From Candidatus Desulfovibrio kirbyi (lineage in GTDB: Bacteria; Desulfobacterota; Desulfovibrionia; Desulfovibrionales; Desulfovibrionaceae), in assembly GCA_013374015.1 (NCBI GenBank), contig BLLL01000003.1, positions 1 to 64,000 on the forward strand: a stretch of DNA of 64,000 nt. Direction: 5' to 3'. Below are positions 1 through 10,995 of this stretch, piece by piece. The notes beneath the pieces are model-generated. The model did not search any database. It had not been told where the DNA came from and saw only the letters and a program-made list of their open reading frames with translations. A program made the position numbers and the translations under genes. The number at the start of each line of letters is the position of its first letter. The first letter of the stretch is position 1.

Positions 1-812
1 CGGTTGAGCTGAGAGGCATTTTTAGCTCCGTCGGTCGCGTCCTCGTAAAACGAACGGCTGTAGCTTTCGTCGCCACGAACGCCGACAAACGCCATTACCT
101 TGACCGCCGACTTGTGCAGTTTGCGTTTCAGGCACATCAGCGCAGGCGTGCTTTTGTGAACAGAACAGCACCATCGAATCGTGCGCGACGGCGGGGCAAA
201 CACGCGCCAGTTTTCAAGCGCGGAGGATTCTGCTTTGGCGCAGATAAATTCTCGTTCAGGGTAGCGGGCTTGAATCTCCTCCCATACTTTATAAGTATCG
301 GGCAGTTCCATATCCGTGTCACTGAAAATCACAGGCACGGACAATGGCAAGACGCGGTGGCAGATGTCAAGCAACGTAACGGAATCCTTGCCGCCCGAGA
401 ACGCGATGTAGGCGATGTCGCACCGGTTGATACTGCCGTCGTAGAGTTCCTTGGTGCGGCGTTTTGCGTCGGCAACGACAATGTCCATAATATCAGCATT
501 AGTGGCAACCATCGCCTCAATGTCTACGGGTTCAAGTTTCAGCTTGCTCTCGAAAAAGATTTGAATGTTCAGTGGCTTGCCGTATTGTGTGTTATTCAAC
601 TGCGCGACTTTCTCACCGTTCAAGAGGTATATGTTCTTTTGCGCCCATAAGAGCGGTAAAGTTTCGTGTCGGTCGTATTCAAAGTGTCTCCCCAGTCCCG
701 TCATCGACAGTTCCGTGGCGAACACAGGACGTATTTCATTCGCGACAAACTTGCCTGTCTGCGTTGTCAGCAAGTAGCCGCGCGTTTTTTTATCCCAAAC
801 ATAAGAGTACAT
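1..812 (-). CDS. PAPS reductase/DndC-like ATP-pyrophosphatase, partial (runs off left edge)
   Basis: The minus-strand frame is open from an ATG at 812 to the window edge, giving at least 270 residues; the C-terminus lies outside. It begins MYSYVWDKKTRGYLL. Around residues 125-140 it carries an adenine-nucleotide PP-loop, AYIAFSGGKDSVTLLD, followed by FSDTDMELPDTY and a cysteine motif IRWCCSVHK. These are hallmarks of the phosphoadenosine-phosphosulfate reductase superfamily (CysH, DndC, BrxP), which activates or reduces sulfate-like groups or modifies nucleic acids. It begins 3 nt after the stop of the 553-aa gene, so the two are surely co-transcribed. The long N-terminal extension before the PP-loop is unlike assimilatory CysH and suggests a defence or DNA-modification role (inference). 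Confidence 0.8.
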   Translation of the reverse strand, partial: MYSYVWDKKTRGYLLTTQTGKFVANEIRPVFATELSMTGLGRHFEYDRHETLPLLWAQKNIYLLNGEKVAQLNNTQYGKPLNIQIFFESKLKLEPVDIEAMVATNADIMDIVVADAKRRTKELYDGSINRCDIAYIAFSGGKDSVTLLDICHRVLPLSVPVIFSDTDMELPDTYKVWEEIQARYPEREFICAKAESSALENWRVFAPPSRTIRWCCSVHKSTPALMCLKRKLHKSAVKVMAFVGVRGDESYSRSFYEDATDGAKNASQLN

Positions 813-815
813 TTT

Positions 816-2477
816 TCAGATCGTCACCCTTCCGAAAACGCCATATTTCCACTCGCGGGGAGAACCGGCTTTATAGCAAACGTCAACAAGTCGCCGATAG
901 GTCGCTTGGTCAGGAATATTATATTCCGCTTTGAAATTTACGCCCAACGCGAGCGACAACGCCGTGTGCAAGACTTCCTCGTTCGGGGCCAGTCCTAAAT
1001 CGTCAAGGCGGTACAACGTGTCGGAAAGCGTGCCCGAAAAATTGTCTGGCAATCCGAGCGCATTGAGCGTTTGATAGCAAACTATTCCGTTGAGTTCAAC
1101 GCGGAGAAGTTCGCCCCTGACGTAGTTTCTTATAATCTTGGCGAGCAAGTCCACAGAAAAGGCGCAGAATTTCTTATGTAAGTCCTCTTCGCTGACCACA
1201 CCGCCGAACTCGTCGTTTGTGACGATGATAATTTTTTGGGCAAGTGTGTCGAATGAGTCCCACACGTCCCCGTTGTTGTAGTGAGCAATTCTATTCCCGA
1301 TTTTCGGTGCTGCAACGCAACGAACGTCACGATTTCCTATGCACTTATAAAATTTCTCAAAATCGTCTGCACAACCAATACATTTCGGGTTGAGCCTGTC
1401 CGCATACAGCGCGTGGAGTTCCGCTATTTCGAAACAACCGTATTCGTCAAGCAGATCGTCGGCAAAACCGACAATGTCCTTACGCGTTTCCGCGTCCGCG
1501 ACGACATCAAGCAAGAAATAAACACCGTCGTTACGGCAAAACATCTGCTGTTTCAGCACGGACTGCATATTATTGTCAATTTCGACACCCGCTTTGTTTG
1601 ACAGCAAGCGGAGCGCAGTGGTGTCAAATCGGAAACCAGCGGAGTATTTTTCGGACAGGATGACAATGACTGACTGAGGAACTGTTACCCAACTCGAATC
1701 GCTGATATTCAGTAACGAGGGATACCTCTCCGCAAGGAATTCTTTCAGCATACGTAAGGAACGCAAATAGCCACGCGCCGATCCGGCTGGGTTGTTTATT
1801 CGTGTTGGGTTTGCCGCAACGTGCCGTTCTATTGCATCATACGCTCGTTGAAAGCCATTATCGGTCGTCAATGCTTCGGCGAGCGTAACGCCGCAGTCGT
1901 TGTTATAAACGTAGTAGGCACCTGAAGCATGCACCGTAACCGTGCCGGAACTCCAATCTGGACGTTGTTCCACAAGCCACGCTCTGAATGTCTCACGGAC
2001 TTCTGGTTGCGCAAACACAGAGGATTCGTCATTGTTCTGCGCCATATTTTTTTCAACAACTCCTCCTTTTATTTTAGGCATGTATGTGATCTCGACATTG
2101 CCAAGTTTTACACCACAGTACCGGCATAGCTTGCCGATAATATCCACAAGGGTTGCAATGTTAAAGTTTACATAAACCCAAGTATCCATCGTTAGTTGCT
2201 TTGATGCGCCGTTCGGCTTTTCTTTAAGTAAAAAAGGCCGTTTACTTCCTGATAGTAAAGGGTTGCTGAATAAGTCATCAATTTTCGGATTGCCCTTGGC
2301 TATGAACATTTCTAAAAGATTGACCAACAAATCTCGCCATGTCCCAACAGGAACAGTCTCGCCGTTTACTTTACAAGTCAATGGGTTGCAACCCGTACAC
2401 AGTGCCGTATGATTAAAGTCCACACGAAAAACTGCGTTATTCGTTGGTTCTGCGGTTGCCGTTGCGGTTTGTGTCAT
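816..2477 (-). CDS. Unknown 553-aa protein partnered with PAPS-reductase-like gene
   Basis: I do not recognise this protein. It has an N-terminal cysteine pair region (CTGCNPLTC, residues about 27-35), a folded-looking segment to about residue 135 with a second pair (CRYC), a charged middle region, and a C-terminal half of apparent alpha-helical repeats. No membrane segment or signal peptide is visible. The start has a good Shine-Dalgarno (AGAGGAAA about 10 nt upstream). The gene leads a two-gene operon with the PAPS-reductase-like gene and is driven by a near-consensus promoter at 2538-2566. Co-transcription with a PP-loop enzyme suggests a substrate-recognition or nucleic-acid-binding partner, but this is inference only. 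Confidence 0.75.
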   Translation of the reverse strand: MTQTATATAEPTNNAVFRVDFNHTALCTGCNPLTCKVNGETVPVGTWRDLLVNLLEMFIAKGNPKIDDLFSNPLLSGSKRPFLLKEKPNGASKQLTMDTWVYVNFNIATLVDIIGKLCRYCGVKLGNVEITYMPKIKGGVVEKNMAQNNDESSVFAQPEVRETFRAWLVEQRPDWSSGTVTVHASGAYYVYNNDCGVTLAEALTTDNGFQRAYDAIERHVAANPTRINNPAGSARGYLRSLRMLKEFLAERYPSLLNISDSSWVTVPQSVIVILSEKYSAGFRFDTTALRLLSNKAGVEIDNNMQSVLKQQMFCRNDGVYFLLDVVADAETRKDIVGFADDLLDEYGCFEIAELHALYADRLNPKCIGCADDFEKFYKCIGNRDVRCVAAPKIGNRIAHYNNGDVWDSFDTLAQKIIIVTNDEFGGVVSEEDLHKKFCAFSVDLLAKIIRNYVRGELLRVELNGIVCYQTLNALGLPDNFSGTLSDTLYRLDDLGLAPNEEVLHTALSLALGVNFKAEYNIPDQATYRRLVDVCYKAGSPREWKYGVFGRVTI

Positions 2478-2537
2478 AGGCGAACTTTCCTCTGTTGAAA
2501 AGGTTATTCCGTAACAACACAGTCTTGACTTGCAGAA

Positions 2538-2566
2538 AGTATATCATAAAATCATTCTATTGTCAA
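2538..2566 (-). promoter_or_regulatory. Sigma70 promoter for the PAPS-reductase module
   Basis: Reading the minus strand, TTGACA (2566-2561) is followed by a 17-nt spacer and TATACT (2543-2538). It has a perfect -35 and one mismatch in the -10. Transcription would start about 55 nt before the ATG at 2477. Confidence 0.7.
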
Positions 2567-2622
2567 TACTCTCAAAATTTATGCAATTTTTTGTGGATAG
2601 AAAATCTTATTGCCGCGCGCTC

Positions 2623-2651
2623 TTGAACTGTACCCCGCAATCTGTTATCAT
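2623..2651 (+). promoter_or_regulatory. Putative dnaE promoter giving an almost leaderless mRNA
   Basis: TTGAAC (2623-2628), 17-nt spacer, TATCAT (2646-2651). The expected transcription start is within one or two bases of the dnaE ATG at 2660, and there is no Shine-Dalgarno before that ATG. Confidence 0.45.
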
Positions 2652-2659
2652 TTATTGTC

Positions 2660-5600
2660 ATGTCTGATTTTGTTCATCTGCACTGCCATACCGAGTACAG
2701 CCTGCTGGACGGTTCCATCCGCATCAGGGATCTTTGCGACTGCGCCAAAAATTTCGGTATGCCGGCCTGCGCCATTACCGACCACGGCAATCTGTTCGGG
2801 GCGGCGCGTTTTTATTTCGCCTGCAAGGATGTCGGCATAAAGCCCATCATAGGCTGCGAAGTCTATGTCTGCCGCGACCATACGGACAAATCCAGAACCC
2901 TGGACGCCGTACGCAACAGTTATCATCTGATTCTTCTGGCGCAAAACGCCGCCGGCTACCGTAACCTTGTCAAACTGGTAACAAAAAGTTTTCTGGACGG
3001 CTTTTATTATACGCCCCGCGTGGATAAAGCCTTGTTGCGTGCCCATGCCGAAGGCCTTGTGTGCCTTTCCGCCTGTATGGCAGGAGAAATCCCCAGCGCC
3101 CTCAGCGCGAGCGATGCTGATGGCGCATTGCGCCTCACAAGGGAATACGCCGCCATATATCCGGACCGCTTTTATCTGGAATTGCAGGCAAACGGCCTTG
3201 TCGAGCAAGAAAAAATCAACGCCGGCCTGCAGGAGCTTGCCGCAACAGCCGGCTTGCCGCTGGTGGCGACAAACGACTGCCACTACCTCACTGCACAAGA
3301 CGTTGAAGCCCATGATGTGCTTCTCTGTATTCAAACTGCCGCCAAGGTTGACGACAAGGACCGCATGCGTTTTGAAACCCGGGAACTGTACTATAAATCT
3401 GCGGAAGAAATGGAGCGGGCATTCGCCCATGTGCCCGAAGCGTTGGCAAATACTGTGCGTATTGCGGATTCCTGCGATTTTACAATGGATTATGGAAAAC
3501 ATTATTTTCCCGTGTATGCTCTGCCGGAAGGTGCTGACATGGGCGGTGAACTGCGCCGGCTTGCGGAAGAAGGGCTTGAAAAACGCCTTGCAAAACATCC
3601 CGACCGCGACACGTTGAACAGGGATATGTACCAGGAGCGGTTGGGGCATGAGCTTGATGTTATTCTGAATATGGGATTTCCGGGGTATCTGCTGATTGTG
3701 CAGGAATTTATCCGGTGGGCAAAAGACAACGCTATCCCGGTAGGCCCCGGGCGCGGTTCTGTTGCCGGTTCGCTTGTGGCGTGGGCGCTGGGGATTACAG
3801 ATCTTGATCCATTGCCGTACGGCCTTCTTTTTGAGCGTTTTCTGAACAGCGAGCGCGTTTCCCTGCCGGATATTGATGTGGATTTTTGCGAACGCCGTCG
3901 CGGAGAAGTGATCAGACACATGGTGGAGCGGTACGGCGAAATGGCGGTTGCCCAGATAACCACCTTTGGTACAATGAAGGCAAGGGCTGTGGTACGCGAT
4001 GTCGCTCGCGCTTTGGGAATAAGCATTGCCGAAACGAACAGGATTGCCAAGCTGATTCCTGACGATTTGAAAATGACGTTGAAAAAAGCGCTTGATCAGG
4101 AGCCTGAGCTTCGCAAGCTCTGCGAATCCGATGATCCGCGCGTACAAAAGCTTGTAGACATATCACTCCGATTGGAAGGCCTTGTGCGTCACAAATCCGT
4201 CCACGCAGCCGGTCTGGTTGTTTCAGACGGGTCGATGGACGACTATCTGCCCCTGTACAATGGCAAAAATCCCGACGAACCGCCAGTCACGCAGTTTGAC
4301 GGGCCGATGGTGGAAAAAATCGGTCTTGTAAAGTTTGATTTTCTGGGCCTTAAAACCATGACGGTGATCGCGGACACTCTGGAAAATATCAAACGTCAGG
4401 GAAAGACGCCGCTGGTACTGGAAGAATTGCCGCTTACAGACCAGGCCACCTATGAGCTTTACGGCAGGGGCGACACGGACGGGGTGTTCCAGATGGAGAG
4501 CGCCGGCTTGCGCAAATATCTGCGTATGCTCAAGCCGTCATGCTTTGAGGATATCATCGCCATGCTGGCGCTGTACCGGCCAGGCCCTCTTGGATCAGGC
4601 ATGGTGGACAGCTTTATACGGCGCAAACACGGGCAGGAACGTGTCGCCTATCCGCACGAATCGCTTGCCGACTGCCTGCGCGATACCTACGGGGTTATTC
4701 TGTATCAGGAACAAGTAATGCAAATTGCCCGGGTTATCGCTGATTATACGCTTGGAGGCGCCGATCTGCTGCGCCGTGCGATGGGCAAGAAAAAAACGGA
4801 AGAGATGGCGCGTGAGCGCGCAAAATTTGTGGCCGGTGCGGGAAAAAAATCTATTGACACGGACACGGCCAATGAAATTTTTGACTTGATGGAAAAATTT
4901 GCCGACTACGGTTTCAACAAATCCCATTCCGCGGCCTACGCCCTTATTTCGTACCATACAGCCTATCTCAAGGCGCACTACAAAGTGGAATTTATGGCAG
5001 CTTTGCTTACCTCTGAAATAGGCAACAATCAGGACAAGCTGCTCAAATATATTACCTGCTGCAAGGCTATGGGCATTAACGTCTGCCCGCCTTCCGTGAA
5101 CAGGAGCAGAAGTGATTTTGTCGCGGCTGAAGACAGCGTTGTTTTTGGCCTTGGCGGAATAAAAAACGTTGGCGAAGCCGCTGTGGACGACATTGTAAAA
5201 TCCCGCGACAACGATGGAGAATTTGCCTCTTTTCTGGATTTCTGCTGCCGCGTTAATCTGCGCAGAGTCACAAACCGCGTACTGGAATTCCTGATCAAGG
5301 GAGGCGCGTGTGACTGTTTTGGCGTATCCCGCGCGGGTCTTTTGGCCGTTATGGACACTGTGGCGGCAAGGGCGCAAAAGCTGCTGAAAGACAAAAAATC
5401 AAAACAGGCTTCCCTGGTTGCCATGACCGCCTCCGCCGAAACGCCGGCACAGTCGGGCATCGGTTTTGACTGTTCTGAAGCCGGCATTCCGGAAATGAAC
5501 GACACAGATATGCTCAAGGCTGAAAAAGAAGCTCTGGGCGCGTATTTTACCAATCATCCGTTGCACGCCTATGCGCATGAAAAACAGCGTCTGGGTCTGA

Positions 5601-6160
5601 CGACCCTGGAAGAAACACTGGATATGCTTACCGGCGCGGAAATATCTTGCGCGGTTATGGTGGTCGATGTTAAAAAAGTTACCGCAAAAGCTGGCAGATA
5701 CGCAGGCAAATACATGGCCTTTGTGCAGGTGGAAGACCTGACCTGCCGTGCGGAAGTGGTTTTTTGGTCTGAAGTGTACGACAAAGTAAAAGAATTGCTT
5801 GTTGTCGACAACACACTGTGCCTGACAGCCAAACTGGAAGAGAACAGCGTGGAGGGGCAGTCTGATGAAACAGGTGAAGCGGGCGTGCCTACCATTAAGC
5901 TCCTCGCGCGCCATGCCCAGGATTTGCGTCAGTTCTGCGAGCAGAGCGCCAATCCGGTATGGGTGGACATTCCGGCGCACCGCCTTGGGCGTGAAGACAT
6001 GCTGGCCTTGAAAAATATACTGGAAACCTATCCGGGAACTGTAGCGGCAAAGGGCAGAGTCGTTCTGGACGGAATCACATGCCGCCTGTGCTTTGCCGAC
6101 TCTCTGAAAGTACGGCCAGGGTTGGATCTGAATAACGCATTGTACCAATGGACTGTATGA
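2660..6160 (+). CDS. dnaE: DNA polymerase III alpha subunit
   Basis: Replicative polymerase subunit of 1166 aa, the usual DnaE length. The N-terminal PHP domain has the metal-binding HLHCHTEYS motif near residue 6 and AITDHGN. The palm has GPGRGSVAGS near residue 362 and the catalytic acidic motif PDIDVDF near residue 403. A C-terminal OB-fold region begins near residue 995 (CAVMVVDVKKV). The reading frame is intact throughout, with no sign of decay. The chosen ATG lacks a Shine-Dalgarno but is the only one that preserves the PHP domain, and a promoter-like sequence ends 8 nt upstream. Confidence 0.97.
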   Translation: MSDFVHLHCHTEYSLLDGSIRIRDLCDCAKNFGMPACAITDHGNLFGAARFYFACKDVGIKPIIGCEVYVCRDHTDKSRTLDAVRNSYHLILLAQNAAGYRNLVKLVTKSFLDGFYYTPRVDKALLRAHAEGLVCLSACMAGEIPSALSASDADGALRLTREYAAIYPDRFYLELQANGLVEQEKINAGLQELAATAGLPLVATNDCHYLTAQDVEAHDVLLCIQTAAKVDDKDRMRFETRELYYKSAEEMERAFAHVPEALANTVRIADSCDFTMDYGKHYFPVYALPEGADMGGELRRLAEEGLEKRLAKHPDRDTLNRDMYQERLGHELDVILNMGFPGYLLIVQEFIRWAKDNAIPVGPGRGSVAGSLVAWALGITDLDPLPYGLLFERFLNSERVSLPDIDVDFCERRRGEVIRHMVERYGEMAVAQITTFGTMKARAVVRDVARALGISIAETNRIAKLIPDDLKMTLKKALDQEPELRKLCESDDPRVQKLVDISLRLEGLVRHKSVHAAGLVVSDGSMDDYLPLYNGKNPDEPPVTQFDGPMVEKIGLVKFDFLGLKTMTVIADTLENIKRQGKTPLVLEELPLTDQATYELYGRGDTDGVFQMESAGLRKYLRMLKPSCFEDIIAMLALYRPGPLGSGMVDSFIRRKHGQERVAYPHESLADCLRDTYGVILYQEQVMQIARVIADYTLGGADLLRRAMGKKKTEEMARERAKFVAGAGKKSIDTDTANEIFDLMEKFADYGFNKSHSAAYALISYHTAYLKAHYKVEFMAALLTSEIGNNQDKLLKYITCCKAMGINVCPPSVNRSRSDFVAAEDSVVFGLGGIKNVGEAAVDDIVKSRDNDGEFASFLDFCCRVNLRRVTNRVLEFLIKGGACDCFGVSRAGLLAVMDTVAARAQKLLKDKKSKQASLVAMTASAETPAQSGIGFDCSEAGIPEMNDTDMLKAEKEALGAYFTNHPLHAYAHEKQRLGLTTLEETLDMLTGAEISCAVMVVDVKKVTAKAGRYAGKYMAFVQVEDLTCRAEVVFWSEVYDKVKELLVVDNTLCLTAKLEENSVEGQSDETGEAGVPTIKLLARHAQDLRQFCEQSANPVWVDIPAHRLGREDMLALKNILETYPGTVAAKGRVVLDGITCRLCFADSLKVRPGLDLNNALYQWTV

Positions 6161-6164
6161 TATA

Positions 6165-6326
6165 ATGTCTATTTTTTCAAAGAGATATCAAATTTTTATA
6201 CTCCCTGTATCTCGGGATGACACTGAGGGCGGATTTTCCTTTGTCTGGAATCAGAACACGCGCAGTGTGCTGGCAATTTTTGTTGTGTTTGTTTCAGCCG
6301 TTGTGGTGTACTGGATTTTGTCCTGA
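6165..6326 (+). CDS. 53-aa single-pass membrane microprotein
   Basis: This short frame begins ATG at 6165 (MSIFSKRYQIFILPVSRDD) and ends in TGA at 6324-6326, which overlaps the queD start codon (TGATG). It has a positively charged N-terminus, a soluble segment of about 30 residues, and one strongly hydrophobic C-terminal helix (VLAIFVVFVSAVVVYWILS). A TATAAT-like run lies at the dnaE end just upstream. Translational coupling with queD and the clean transmembrane helix argue that it is real. Its function is unknown. Confidence 0.6.
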   Translation: MSIFSKRYQIFILPVSRDDTEGGFSFVWNQNTRSVLAIFVVFVSAVVVYWILS

Positions 6327-6739
6327 TGGCGACCAGGCTCTGGCAACTCACAGTGTGCGATGAATTTGCGGCGGCGCATGCCCTGCGTCACTACAAGGGC
6401 AAGTGCGAGCGCCTTCACGGACACAATTTTTCTGTTGAACTGACTGTGGAAGGTCGCCGCCTGACGCCTGAAACGGAACTGTTAATGGATTTTACAACAC
6501 TCAAGGCAATTCTTGCCAACGTGTTGCGCGATTTGGATCATACAACGCTTAACGATGTGCCGCCGTTCGACACAATCAATCCTTCTTCAGAAAATCTTGC
6601 CCACCATATCTGGCAGGGCGTTGTCGCGCGTCTGGTCGCCCACGCCGACCCGCAGGCCGCGCTTGTGCGCCCCGTCAGCGTGAGCGTGTCCGAAAAATAT
6701 TCCCAACGCGCCGTGTATCGGGAAATTGACGAACCGTAA
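6326..6739 (+). CDS. queD: 6-carboxytetrahydropterin synthase, queuosine pathway
   Basis: This 137-aa protein belongs to the 6-pyruvoyl-tetrahydropterin synthase/QueD family, which makes 6-carboxy-tetrahydropterin for queuosine and other 7-deazapurines. Seen in the sequence: an N-terminal histidine (AAAHALRHYKG), a catalytic cysteine in KCERLHGHNF with the zinc-binding HGH, and the C-terminal glutamate motif VSVSEKYSQRAVY. The length matches the family. The start overlaps the stop of the upstream microprotein. No other queuosine gene is in the window. Confidence 0.9.
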   Translation: MATRLWQLTVCDEFAAAHALRHYKGKCERLHGHNFSVELTVEGRRLTPETELLMDFTTLKAILANVLRDLDHTTLNDVPPFDTINPSSENLAHHIWQGVVARLVAHADPQAALVRPVSVSVSEKYSQRAVYREIDEP

Positions 6740-6895
6740 CTTATTGGAATTCCTCAAATAACAGTCTGAAATTGCTGAAATTGTCCTGACACAACCAGCA
6801 CAGCCGGCGTTGTTGTCAAAAAATGCTTGCTGCAGCCCTTGCCGTCTGATAGTTTTGTCGAATATTTTTCAGGTAGCGGGGGTAGCCTTATAACC

Positions 6896-7063
6896 ATGCG
6901 TAAAATTCGTGAAAATCTTGCCCGCGTCAGGCCAAGTTTGTCGCGTCATGAGTTTCAGCGCGCGCTCGGGCATTTGCGTACAGGCCTGAAGCTTGCTCCG
7001 TAAAATCAGGATTTGCGCGTCTTGGTTGCAGAATGCCTGAGCTTGCGCCAGAAGAAAAGCGCA
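6896..7063 (+). pseudogene. Probable decayed small gene upstream of the nuclease pair
   Basis: An ATG at 6896 opens a 35-aa frame (MRKIRENLARVRPSLSRHEF) that stops at 7003. A shifted frame immediately continues with coding-like sequence (NQDLRVLVAECLSLRQKKSA). The amphipathic, arginine-rich pattern suggests the two ends of one former protein after a deletion or frameshift. The rest of the 6740-7032 interval shows no supported gene. Identity unknown. Confidence 0.35.
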
Positions 7064-8364
7064 TAAAACCAAGGGGTTTTCTTACGGTACGTTATATCCA
7101 CGCGGCGGATCTGCATCTGGACACCGCTTTTTACGGCATTGCCGATGTGCGGCTTGCCAAGTTGTTGCGCAAGGCCACCTTTACCGCGCTGGATCGCCTT
7201 GTCCAGTTCTGTGAATCGGAAAAGCCGGATTTTCTTGTGCTGGCCGGCGATATTTACAATCAGGAAGATTGCAGCATCAAGGCGCAGCTTGCCCTGCGCG
7301 ATGCCTGCCTGAGTTTGCAACGCGCAGCGGTGCGCGTTTTTTTGGCGCACGGCAATCACGATCCTCTGTCTTCGCGTCTTGCAACCGTTGCCCTGCCGGA
7401 CAATGTGACGGTTTTCGGTACGGCACCGGAAAGCCATGTTGTTGAAAAACAAGGCGCAGTTGTGGCCGTTGTCCACGGCATAAGCCATGAGCGGGCCGGC
7501 GAGAGCAAAAATCTGGCCAGCTTGTTCAGCCGCGATCAGGCCCACGACTGTTTTCAGCTTGGTGTGCTGCACTGCGCCGTAACAGGCCAGACAGGCAAGG
7601 ATCGCAGCTATGCCCCCTGCTCTGTGGCCGATCTCAGGGCATCCGGTCTGGACGCTTGGGCGCTCGGGCATGTGCACGAACGCTGTGTGCTTTCTCCAAC
7701 GCCCTTTATCGCCTACTGCGGCAATGCCCAGGGGCTGCACATCAATGAAGAGGGCGATCGCGGCTGTTTGCTGGTAACGGTGGGAAGTACTGCCTGTGAG
7801 TCGAAGTTTCTGCCGCTTGGGCAGGTACAGTGGAAAACCCTTGCCTTTGATCTGGAAGGCGCGGCAAACGTCAATGACGTGGAGGCACGTCTGACGCGGC
7901 TTCTGAAAGATGCCGCGGCGGGAGCGAACAATGCCTGCGCGGACATTGTGGCGCGTGTGACGTGTACAGGGTGTACGGCGCTGGACGCCCAGCTGCGCAA
8001 CACCGATCTGTTGCAGACGCTTAAAGGGCGCCTTGCGCCGTACGCCGGCAGCCCGAACATCTGGCTTAAGGATTTCAGGGTGGAAACCAGCCCGGAGATT
8101 GACCGCGAACAGTATCTGCTGCGCGAAGATCTGCTCGGCTGCACGTTGCAGCGCATTGACGCGCTGTCAAAGGACAGGGCGGAGTTGCAGTCTGTCATAA
8201 ACGCAGCGATTGGCGGAAGAACGCCGCGCAATGCTTCCACCAAAAACCTTTTGGCGATGCATACCGCGCAGTTGGATGATGAGCAGAGGCTGCTTTTGCT
8301 GCGCGAGGCTGAGCGGCTGTGCATCGCTTCATTATCTCCATCAGCGCGTTCGTGTCACACATAA
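7033..8364 (+). CDS. YhaO/SbcD-like metallophosphoesterase (DNA repair nuclease subunit)
   Basis: Calcineurin-like metallophosphoesterase of about 443 aa. The di-metal motifs are in order: AADLHLD, LAGDIYN, HGNHDP, VHGIS and LGHVHER. It precedes an SMC/Rad50-like ATPase, as in yhaO-yhaN and sbcD-sbcC pairs, so it is probably the nuclease half of an end-processing complex. The start is uncertain. The ATG at 7033 adds about 17 residues with no family similarity. Homologues would begin at position 7084, where the codon is ACG preceded at 7 nt by AAGGGG. The last 20 residues look non-conserved and may reflect a 3' frameshift. Confidence 0.85.
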   Translation: MPELAPEEKRIKPRGFLTVRYIHAADLHLDTAFYGIADVRLAKLLRKATFTALDRLVQFCESEKPDFLVLAGDIYNQEDCSIKAQLALRDACLSLQRAAVRVFLAHGNHDPLSSRLATVALPDNVTVFGTAPESHVVEKQGAVVAVVHGISHERAGESKNLASLFSRDQAHDCFQLGVLHCAVTGQTGKDRSYAPCSVADLRASGLDAWALGHVHERCVLSPTPFIAYCGNAQGLHINEEGDRGCLLVTVGSTACESKFLPLGQVQWKTLAFDLEGAANVNDVEARLTRLLKDAAAGANNACADIVARVTCTGCTALDAQLRNTDLLQTLKGRLAPYAGSPNIWLKDFRVETSPEIDREQYLLREDLLGCTLQRIDALSKDRAELQSVINAAIGGRTPRNASTKNLLAMHTAQLDDEQRLLLLREAERLCIASLSPSARSCHT

Positions 8365-8415
8365 AGGCGTTGAAGAAAATTACGAGTTTGTCCGCATTTG
8401 TTGCTTGAGGTAGCG

Positions 8416-10995
8416 ATGTATATTGAATCCTTCAAAATTGACGGCTTCGGCATTTTTGCGGGCGCGGTTGTCGAATCTCTGTCGCCAGGTCTTTCCATAT
8501 TTATGGGAGACAATGAAGCGGGCAAATCCACCTGTCTGGAATTTTTGCGCGTCATCCTCACGGGCTATCCGGCAAGCAAAGCCGCAATCGACAAGCTTGC
8601 CCCGGTGCGCGGCGGTTCTCCCGGAGGTAGCCTTGTTTTGCGCACAGACGGGAACAAAACCTTGCATGTGACGCGCAAGCCCGGTGGCCTGCTCAAAAAC
8701 GGCGGCCTGCTGTCTCTGGCCGATTCTGATGGTCATCCTCTGAAGGATTCCGGACTGTTGCAGGCGATATTCCACGGTATTTCCGCCAATGTGTACCGCG
8801 CTGTTTTTGGTTTCAGCTTGTACGAGCTGCAAACCTTTGACACGCTCACCCAGGGCAATGTGAGTAGCGCCCTGTACGGGGCAAGTTTCGGTCCTGGTCT
8901 CACTCCGCCGGGCGTGGCGCAGCAAAATCTTGACAACAAAATGAAGAGGATTCTTGCCGGCGACAAAAACAGCCCGAGTATGGCTGACTATGCAGCGGAA
9001 TTGGAACAACTCACCGACAACATTAAGGCAGTAACAGCGCGGCATGAGCAATACGACGAATTTGCCTCAGAGCTTGACAAGAAAAGATCCCTGCTGACGG
9101 AGCAACGCGGCCGCAAAAACGGGCTGGATAAAGAGCGCGCCCGCCTACAACACCGTCTTGACCTTTGGAAGCAGTGGGACGACTGGCGCAAGGCCGGCAA
9201 GGAACTTGAAAGCCTTGCGCCTGATTCCGCCCTGCGGGACGCCTTGCCAGAGATGAACACCCTTGCCCAGCATAAAAGCCTTTATCAGAACGCGGTCAAC
9301 AGTCAATCGGAACTGTCAGCCTCACTGACGCGCGCCCGGGAAGAAAAAAACCATTTTCTGCATTCGCTGGGGGAAGGATGGGACTGCGCGCGCATACGCG
9401 CAACCGACCGTTCGCTGCATCAGGCTGCTGTGAACAACATCAACAGAGCCAATGACGAAATTGAATGCGCGCGGCGCGCGGTTGACAAGGCCGAGCCCGC
9501 AATCGACAGGGAAAATGAGCTTTTGCAGGAGACGGACTTACGGCTTAAAAGCAATCTGGCGTCTTCGTCTGCCAAAAATCTGCCGCTGATGGCGCTTGGA
9601 CTTACGTTAATTGTGTGCGGCTTTGCCTTGCTGGCCGCGTACTGGCGATTTGACGTGACGGCTTTGCCTGTCACGGAAACGCTGGCACTACCGATAAGCC
9701 CGTTGTCCGGCTGTCTTGCGCTGCTGTGCGGCGTGACTTTTCTGGCAGGCGGGCTGTTGCGCAGCGGGCTTGAGGCAAAGCGCTACAGGCAGGAACGGGA
9801 ATATCTGCAAAAAAGACGGGATGCGTATGCGCTGCATATCGCACTGCAAAAACAGGCGGCAGAGCGGATGCAGGGTGCGGAAAAACGCCTCTGTGCAGCC
9901 AAAAAAGCCTGGAATGCCTACACAGAGGGGCTTGGCCTTGGCAAAGACCTGGAGCCGGCAACAGTGCGCGCCGCCTTAGTTTCTATGGAAAAATTTCTGG
10001 CCGCGGAGGCGGAATGCGGGCATCTTACCAAAATCCTTGCGGAAAACAGCAAAAATCAGGAGGCGCTGCGCGCGCCCTTGCAGGAACTGCTCGTTCGGCT
10101 TGAGCGTTTGCCGCTGCTGTATGCAAACGGTGAACCGGACTGGGCAACTACGCTGGACATGCTGTTGAAAGACGCTCAGGATGCCTCGGACAGGCATACG
10201 AAAATCGCAACCCGCAAACAGATTGTCGAAGACGCGTTACGCCGCGCGGCGGACAAAACCCCTCTTGAGGAATTTTTGGCTTCGTTCAGTCCGGATGAAG
10301 AGGCCGGCCTGATGAGAAATCGCAGTGATCTGGAGGGAAAGTACGCTGCCCTTCAGGAGGCGGAACAGGAAATTCAGGGGAACATCGCCGTGCTGGATCA
10401 TACGGTCAAAACCCTGTCCACGGCGGACGATCTTGCAGAACTGCGCCAACGCTGGGAGGCTGTTCAGGAAGCCCTGCGCGTCATGTGTCTTGACTGGGCA
10501 CGGCACGCGCTTGCCTACGAACTGATCGCGCAGGCGCAACGGCAATTCCAGAACGAACACCAACCCCGGATTGTCCGCGACGTTTCCGCCATGTTCAAAA
10601 GCATCACCGGAGGGCGCTGGCGGGGGATCAGCGTCTCTCTGGCTGATTCCTCCCTGAACATTCTACCCGATCACGGTGCATCGCTTTCGCCGGAATCGTT
10701 GAGCCGCGGCGCTCAGGAACAGGTCTACCTTGCGTTGCGCCTTGCCTATATCAAAAACCATGCGCGTCAGGCATGTGCCCTGCCGCTTGTTATGGACGAT
10801 GTACTGGTAAATTTTGATCCAACGCGGGCGGAACGCACTGCAAATGCCCTTGTGCAATTTACTGAAAAAACAGGGGACTGTCCGTCCCACCAGATACTCT
10901 ACTTCACCTGTCACCCGCATACGGTGGATGCTTTGAGCAAAGCCGCGCCGAACGCGGCGCTGTTCCGCATTGAAGACGGCCGGATCAGAGCTTGA
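8416..10995 (+). CDS. YhaN/Rad50-like ATPase with coiled coil and central membrane hairpin
   Basis: SMC-like ATPase of 859 aa. Walker A GDNEAGKST lies at residues 31-39 and Walker B LPLVMDDVLVNFD near residue 790, with SRGAQEQVYLALRLA as the ABC signature region. Long heptad-rich arms lie between. Two hydrophobic helices sit in the middle of the arms (about residues 393-412 and 429-450), as in YhaN proteins but not SbcC. I chose ATG 8416 because TTGAGG lies 5 nt upstream and the protein then begins MYIESFKIDGFG as in the family. It follows the metallophosphoesterase by about 50 nt and is its likely partner. Confidence 0.88.
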   Translation: MYIESFKIDGFGIFAGAVVESLSPGLSIFMGDNEAGKSTCLEFLRVILTGYPASKAAIDKLAPVRGGSPGGSLVLRTDGNKTLHVTRKPGGLLKNGGLLSLADSDGHPLKDSGLLQAIFHGISANVYRAVFGFSLYELQTFDTLTQGNVSSALYGASFGPGLTPPGVAQQNLDNKMKRILAGDKNSPSMADYAAELEQLTDNIKAVTARHEQYDEFASELDKKRSLLTEQRGRKNGLDKERARLQHRLDLWKQWDDWRKAGKELESLAPDSALRDALPEMNTLAQHKSLYQNAVNSQSELSASLTRAREEKNHFLHSLGEGWDCARIRATDRSLHQAAVNNINRANDEIECARRAVDKAEPAIDRENELLQETDLRLKSNLASSSAKNLPLMALGLTLIVCGFALLAAYWRFDVTALPVTETLALPISPLSGCLALLCGVTFLAGGLLRSGLEAKRYRQEREYLQKRRDAYALHIALQKQAAERMQGAEKRLCAAKKAWNAYTEGLGLGKDLEPATVRAALVSMEKFLAAEAECGHLTKILAENSKNQEALRAPLQELLVRLERLPLLYANGEPDWATTLDMLLKDAQDASDRHTKIATRKQIVEDALRRAADKTPLEEFLASFSPDEEAGLMRNRSDLEGKYAALQEAEQEIQGNIAVLDHTVKTLSTADDLAELRQRWEAVQEALRVMCLDWARHALAYELIAQAQRQFQNEHQPRIVRDVSAMFKSITGGRWRGISVSLADSSLNILPDHGASLSPESLSRGAQEQVYLALRLAYIKNHARQACALPLVMDDVLVNFDPTRAERTANALVQFTEKTGDCPSHQILYFTCHPHTVDALSKAAPNAALFRIEDGRIRA

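Follow-up and report, generated by a model that had tools for sequence, protein, structure and literature searches.

A modular gene directly 5' of brxP in BREX type 4 operons as a candidate DNA-reading subunit

Most operons of the phage-defence system BREX type 4 are headed by a gene that lies directly 5' of brxP and exchanges its DNA-binding N-terminal modules between close relatives. One such gene is located at a contig edge of Candidatus Desulfovibrio kirbyi, within the 64,000-nt stretch of DNA analysed here (the window). Sequence comparison indicates that this gene, which encodes a 553-aa protein, and the CysH-like gene behind it make up the start of an operon of BREX type 4, a DNA-phosphorothioation system. 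Somewhat more probably than otherwise, the 553-aa protein is a modular subunit of BREX-4 that reads a DNA target or its modification and fills the specificity role of the absent PglX. The family and position of this reader gene are established from the loci themselves, and from these we infer its function.

The reader gene would bear on how BREX-4 chooses its sites without a PglX methyltransferase. Passages of PMC12839542 and PMC11931770 describe BREX-4 as using BrxP-based phosphorothioation in place of this methyltransferase. In its main text, the 2026 BREX survey gives BrxP/DUF4007, BrxC, PglZ and BrxL as type-4 parts, and mentions five major parts together with a small zinc-finger protein and a cysteine desulfurase (PMC12839542). 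The gene upstream of brxP is unmentioned in the passages of that text covered here, and BREX is unmentioned in the 2024 phosphorothioation reappraisal. The novelty of the reader gene as a BREX-4 component is provisional; the supplements may mention it.

The gene pair as the start of a BREX type 4 operon

The gene pair and its upstream region comprise the following features:

816..2477, minus strand: 553-aa ORF, first gene of the BREX-4 operon; candidate modular DNA reader
2079..2438, minus strand: N-terminal exchangeable module, residues ~14-133; predicted SeqA-DNA-binding-domain-like fold
1692..2042, minus strand: helical module in the middle of the protein, modelled with low confidence (pLDDT about 51-78); residues ~146-262
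819..1685, minus strand: conserved core at the C-terminus, predicted as winged helices in tandem; residues ~265-553, with the HMM matching 273-522
3..812, minus strand: 5' part of brxP with the N-terminal extension and PP-loop CysH domain; 270 of ~780 aa, the gene continuing past the contig end
2538..2566, minus strand: sigma-70-type promoter by sequence, TTGACA-17-TATACT
2524..2582, no strand assigned: repeat overlapping the promoter; six other genomic matches of 28-62 bp

Both ORFs are real genes, and the second one is truncated by the assembly. The stop codon of the 553-aa ORF occupies 816-818 and the ATG of brxP 812-810, which leaves the spacing of 3 nt that the earlier note had reported. 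A strong promoter had also been placed ahead of the pair, and the minus strand indeed carries near-consensus boxes there, TTGACA at 2561-2566 and TATACT at 2538-2543, separated by a 17-nt spacer. At least two copies of the overlapping repeat (on contigs C19 and C21) lie immediately 5' of IS1-like transposase frames, and the operon promoter may have originated from an IS end. Position 1 of the window is base 1 of its contig (G000:C3), so nothing lies to the left, and brxP is open-ended at this point.

BrxP is a PAPS-reductase-like protein with an N-terminal extension and with Fe-S and DUF4007 parts. By sequence similarity, the CysH-superfamily ORF is the N-terminal 270 aa of this enzyme, which carries out sulfur transfer in BREX type 4; the assignment refers to the 270-aa N-terminus, as the Fe-S and DUF4007 parts fall past the contig end. 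The PADLOC BrxP model matches the ORF at E=2.8e-97 (325 bits, model positions 1-274 of 779), and the PP-loop motif SGGKDS is present, with a PF01507 match of E=3.1e-14. Window BrxP is 89% identical across all 270 residues to BrxP of a Desulfovibrio MAG locus (L029) and 55% identical to the complete BREX-4 BrxP of genome G355. The PADLOC match confirms as BrxP what had been described as a DndC/BrxP-like PP-loop enzyme, while the N-terminal extension regarded as unusual is standard for BrxP, being in register from residue 1. Membership in a Dnd or Ssp system was rejected on the competing PADLOC scores (SspD 1.5e-12, 46 bits; DndC 2e-5, 22 bits) as against the 325 bits for BrxP. An assimilatory CysH was likewise rejected, with 23.7 bits for TIGR00434 (cut-off 165) and 33 bits for PRK02090 (cut-off 154); truncation of the ORF depresses both scores, and the BrxP model matches far better regardless.

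Homologous full BREX-4 operons have the gene order partner-brxP-brxC-pglZ-brxL. On the Methanosphaera plasmid pNP174 and in genome G355, BrxP is followed by BrxC, PglZ and BrxL, and in G355 a homologue of the 553-aa protein adjoins brxP on the 5' side; in L029, matches to brxC, pglZ and brxL lie 3' of brxP. The window locus is therefore like BREX type 4 in that its BrxP is in register and its homologous loci are complete BREX-4 operons, and unlike it in the extra first gene and in the absence of the operon remainder from the assembly. The rest of BrxP and the BREX-4 BrxC, pglZ and brxL were found on none of the other contigs of this assembly, whose sole PglZ and BrxL sit in a BREX-1 locus on contig C4. 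With neither a brxP remainder nor a BREX-4 brxC in the assembly, the missing part either falls into an assembly gap or has been lost from a truncated operon. The BrxC homologue noted as not visible would lie past the contig end, and no other contig carries a BREX-4 BrxC.

The same observations bear on whether the two genes alone could form a distinct minimal system, as had been suggested. In its favour, no more than two genes can be seen and BREX-4 brxC, pglZ and brxL are absent from the assembly; against it, the contig stops within brxP, and BrxP homologues extend to ~780 aa and are followed by brxC-pglZ-brxL, so that this reading retains very little probability. The broader proposal of a defence or DNA-modification module is upheld by the BrxP match and by homologous pairs inside full BREX-4 operons. 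A neighbourhood survey placed the homologues of the pair in BREX-4 operons with no sulfur-assimilation neighbours, and the partner did not turn out to be a known metabolic enzyme.

The same genome contains a BREX type 1 locus (L014 521-16591, contig C4 of G000) with brxA, brxB, brxC, pglX, an ATPase, pglZ and brxL. Two genes of the genome belong to PF00266, a family that includes cysteine desulfurases.

A conserved core directly upstream of brxP

The partner protein, previously described as large and unrecognised, is a real protein with zero matches in the Pfam, NCBIfam and PADLOC models, methyltransferase and TRD models of these libraries included. Single-sequence searches found no relatives in plasmids, phages and viral contigs, and none in the 198 further genomes of the same taxonomic family, and phmmer against PDB sequences gave no meaningful match. 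A BrxP scan of 84,980 species' genomes yielded 80 loci, and a same-strand ORF lies directly 5' of brxP in 69, nearly all of those in which upstream sequence is present. A core HMM, built iteratively with the C-terminal half of the 553-aa protein as its seed, reaches 69 of the 71 brxP-upstream proteins. The conserved core comprises ~237 aa; about 69 BREX-4 loci, spread over many phyla, encode it immediately 5' of brxP, with a spacing of ≤15 nt between core ORF and brxP in 60/67. Against all ORFs of the loci, the HMM matches the brxP-upstream ORF only and gives no match in the BREX-1 locus. Among 395 evenly drawn genomes of the phylum, strong core matches number four, all directly 5' of brxP.

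Similarity of the core tracks that of BrxP (Spearman 0.85, 0/999 permutations), which at the sequence level shows that the two co-evolve. The CTGCNPLTC cysteines of the 553-aa protein are kept only in near relatives and are therefore no family-defining feature; the earlier description of a cysteine-containing partner is accurate for the window protein and does not extend to the family. Two loci, L044 (3152-8962) and L079 (3545-7803), each have a pair of tandem reader genes 5' of brxP, the two copies differing from one another.

Domain architecture and exchange of N-terminal modules

Reader-family proteins combine a core of 240±6 aa with an N-terminal part of 9-884 aa (351±193) and a C-terminal tail of ~31 aa in the window clade and ~220 aa in most others; the largest upstream proteins reach 1356 aa. 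In an AlphaFold2 model of the 553-aa protein based on 53 sequences, the core (pLDDT ~95) is predicted to consist of repeated HHH-EE units, and its nearest PDB structures are winged helices. The N-terminal module also reaches pLDDT ~95 in the whole-protein model and 93.9 when modelled alone, and the middle region is poorly modelled. The best three PDB matches of the N-terminal module are to the SeqA DNA-binding domain (1lrr, 3fmt and 3sk7; Z 6.7-7.0), followed by a SLED domain at Z 4.6. The module resembles the C-terminal DNA-binding domain of SeqA, with 95 residues aligned at an rmsd of 2.9 (Z 7.0), but at 10% identity the likeness is one of predicted fold only; the Foldseek E of 0.28 is modest, and a Z of 7 can reflect a common arrangement. 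The model is thus suggestive of a SeqA-like DNA-binding fold. Like the tripartite wHTH of the DUF4007/SspB/BrxA type, which is tied to BREX/Ssp DNA binding, the core contains several predicted winged helices; BrxP relatives already have a DUF4007 domain of their own. Kinship between core and DUF4007 was rejected, as hhalign gave a probability of 0.4% and no profile relation.

The N-terminal module of the window protein yields 40 domain matches in 32 ORFs, with 1-3 copies per ORF, and is confined to the reader-gene family among the loci analysed. The helical middle module is found only in P0001, L031 and L032. Alternative N-terminal modules include HARE-HTH, sigma70_r4 (sigma-70 region 4), RNA_pol_A_CTD, Phage_int_SAM (SAM-like) and SeqA-like ones; all exchanged modules that can be recognised thus belong to families or folds that bind DNA. 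Helicase, PLD and MazG domains, which a pooled family scan had offered as N-terminal modules, were rejected because they come from the core-less upstream gene of L086.

Sequence comparison shows that close relatives have exchanged the part of the gene that precedes the core. L024 and the window share BrxP proteins that are 86.7% identical and cores that are 60% identical, with zero similarity in the N-terminal part, where L024 has HARE-HTH in place of the SeqA-like and helical modules. Between L029 and the window, 86% nucleotide identity ends at window position 1718, the boundary between module and core; the reader copy of L029 (8007-8991) lacks the N-terminal module and has a frameshifted core. 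For pairs with 80-90% identical BrxP, the N-terminal part is <30% alignable in 39%.

Proposed function of the reader gene

In the proposed mechanism, the core would dock the protein onto the BrxP/BrxC complex and DNA, and the N-terminal module would read DNA sequence or modification state. The protein could thereby direct sulfur insertion by BrxP, restriction by BrxC-PglZ-BrxL, or both, and would do the specificity job that PglX performs in the methylating BREX types, BREX-4 having no PglX. PglX/BrxX of BREX-1 and HsdS of type I R-M systems offer a functional parallel only: in them, too, an exchangeable recognition part stands beside a conserved enzyme, and the reader gene likewise occurs in occasional tandem copies. 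Unlike them, the window protein matches no methyltransferase or TRD model. A more specific version, in which BREX-4 would have a near-universal, hitherto undescribed extra gene for an exchangeable target-recognition subunit that serves phosphorothioation and restriction, and in which swapping the N-terminal module would reprogramme the sequence marked by sulfur, is put forward tentatively. Several points weigh against a reading subunit: one BrxP clade does without the gene, the SeqA match is modest, DUF4007 in BrxP already supplies a DNA-binding unit, and DNA-binding modules would suit a regulator too.

SeqA is a reader of hemimethylated DNA, and a predicted fold of this kind would also fit a protein that senses phage DNA or its modification status for restriction only, licensing PglZ/BrxL and leaving the sites of BrxP undirected. 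Turnover of the N-terminal part is compatible with an arms race, and HARE-HTH has been proposed to discriminate modified DNA (PMC10853773). The coupling to brxP (≤15 nt in 60/67) and the co-evolution with BrxP favour the modification side, though not exclusively, and a pure sensor appears rather unlikely. Less likely still is a role in which the protein regulates transcription of its own operon, as BrxR does in BREX-1. The gene is the first of its operon, and winged-helix, sigma-70 region 4 and RNAP-alpha-CTD-like modules would be in keeping with such a role; sizes of up to 1356 aa, N-terminal parts that vary widely from one near-identical operon to the next, differing copies in tandem and the near-overlap with brxP would all be unusual for it.

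A gene that heads most BREX-4 operons, co-evolves with BrxP and has swapped DNA-binding modules is a concrete target for deletion and module exchange. Because no PADLOC model matches it, a model of the reader family would aid BREX-4 detection. If the specificity role is true, the variety of modules may permit sequence-programmable phosphorothioation.

BREX-4 loci without the core and weak matches elsewhere

In the BrxP tree, scored for presence and absence with loci cut by contig edges excluded, the loci without the core group together in a single clade (support 0.997; L010, L086, L118, L120 and others), apart from the singleton L037. As one BrxP clade lacks the reader gene, the gene is not obligatory for every BREX-4. 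Several members of this clade have a stand-alone second DUF4007 gene between brxP and brxC, with such genes at:

L118, 9999-10727: second DUF4007 gene
L119 (reverse complement), 2404-3126: second DUF4007 gene
L120, 9051-9797: second DUF4007 gene
L070, 2546-3322: second DUF4007 gene

A separate short DUF4007 piece is absent from 69 core loci and present in one (L085), which has no full-length BrxP ORF, suggesting a split brxP. These few loci hint that the core and a separate DUF4007 gene are mutually exclusive. In the Desulfonema BREX-4 locus L086, an unrelated 941-aa MazG/PLD/helicase protein is encoded 5' of brxP (5892-8714).

The 395-genome set also gave two weak core matches (2e-10 and 6e-4), both in long proteins that adjoin an HKD-type helicase and an ABC ATPase in an arrangement that, by eye, is Dnd-like. 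In L108 (247-8470) and L109 (3505-11257), the genes for an HKD-type helicase and a DndD-like ABC ATPase come after that for a long protein, which has weak similarity to the core and a sigma-70-like helix. This protein may be a related reader that belongs to a Dnd-like system.
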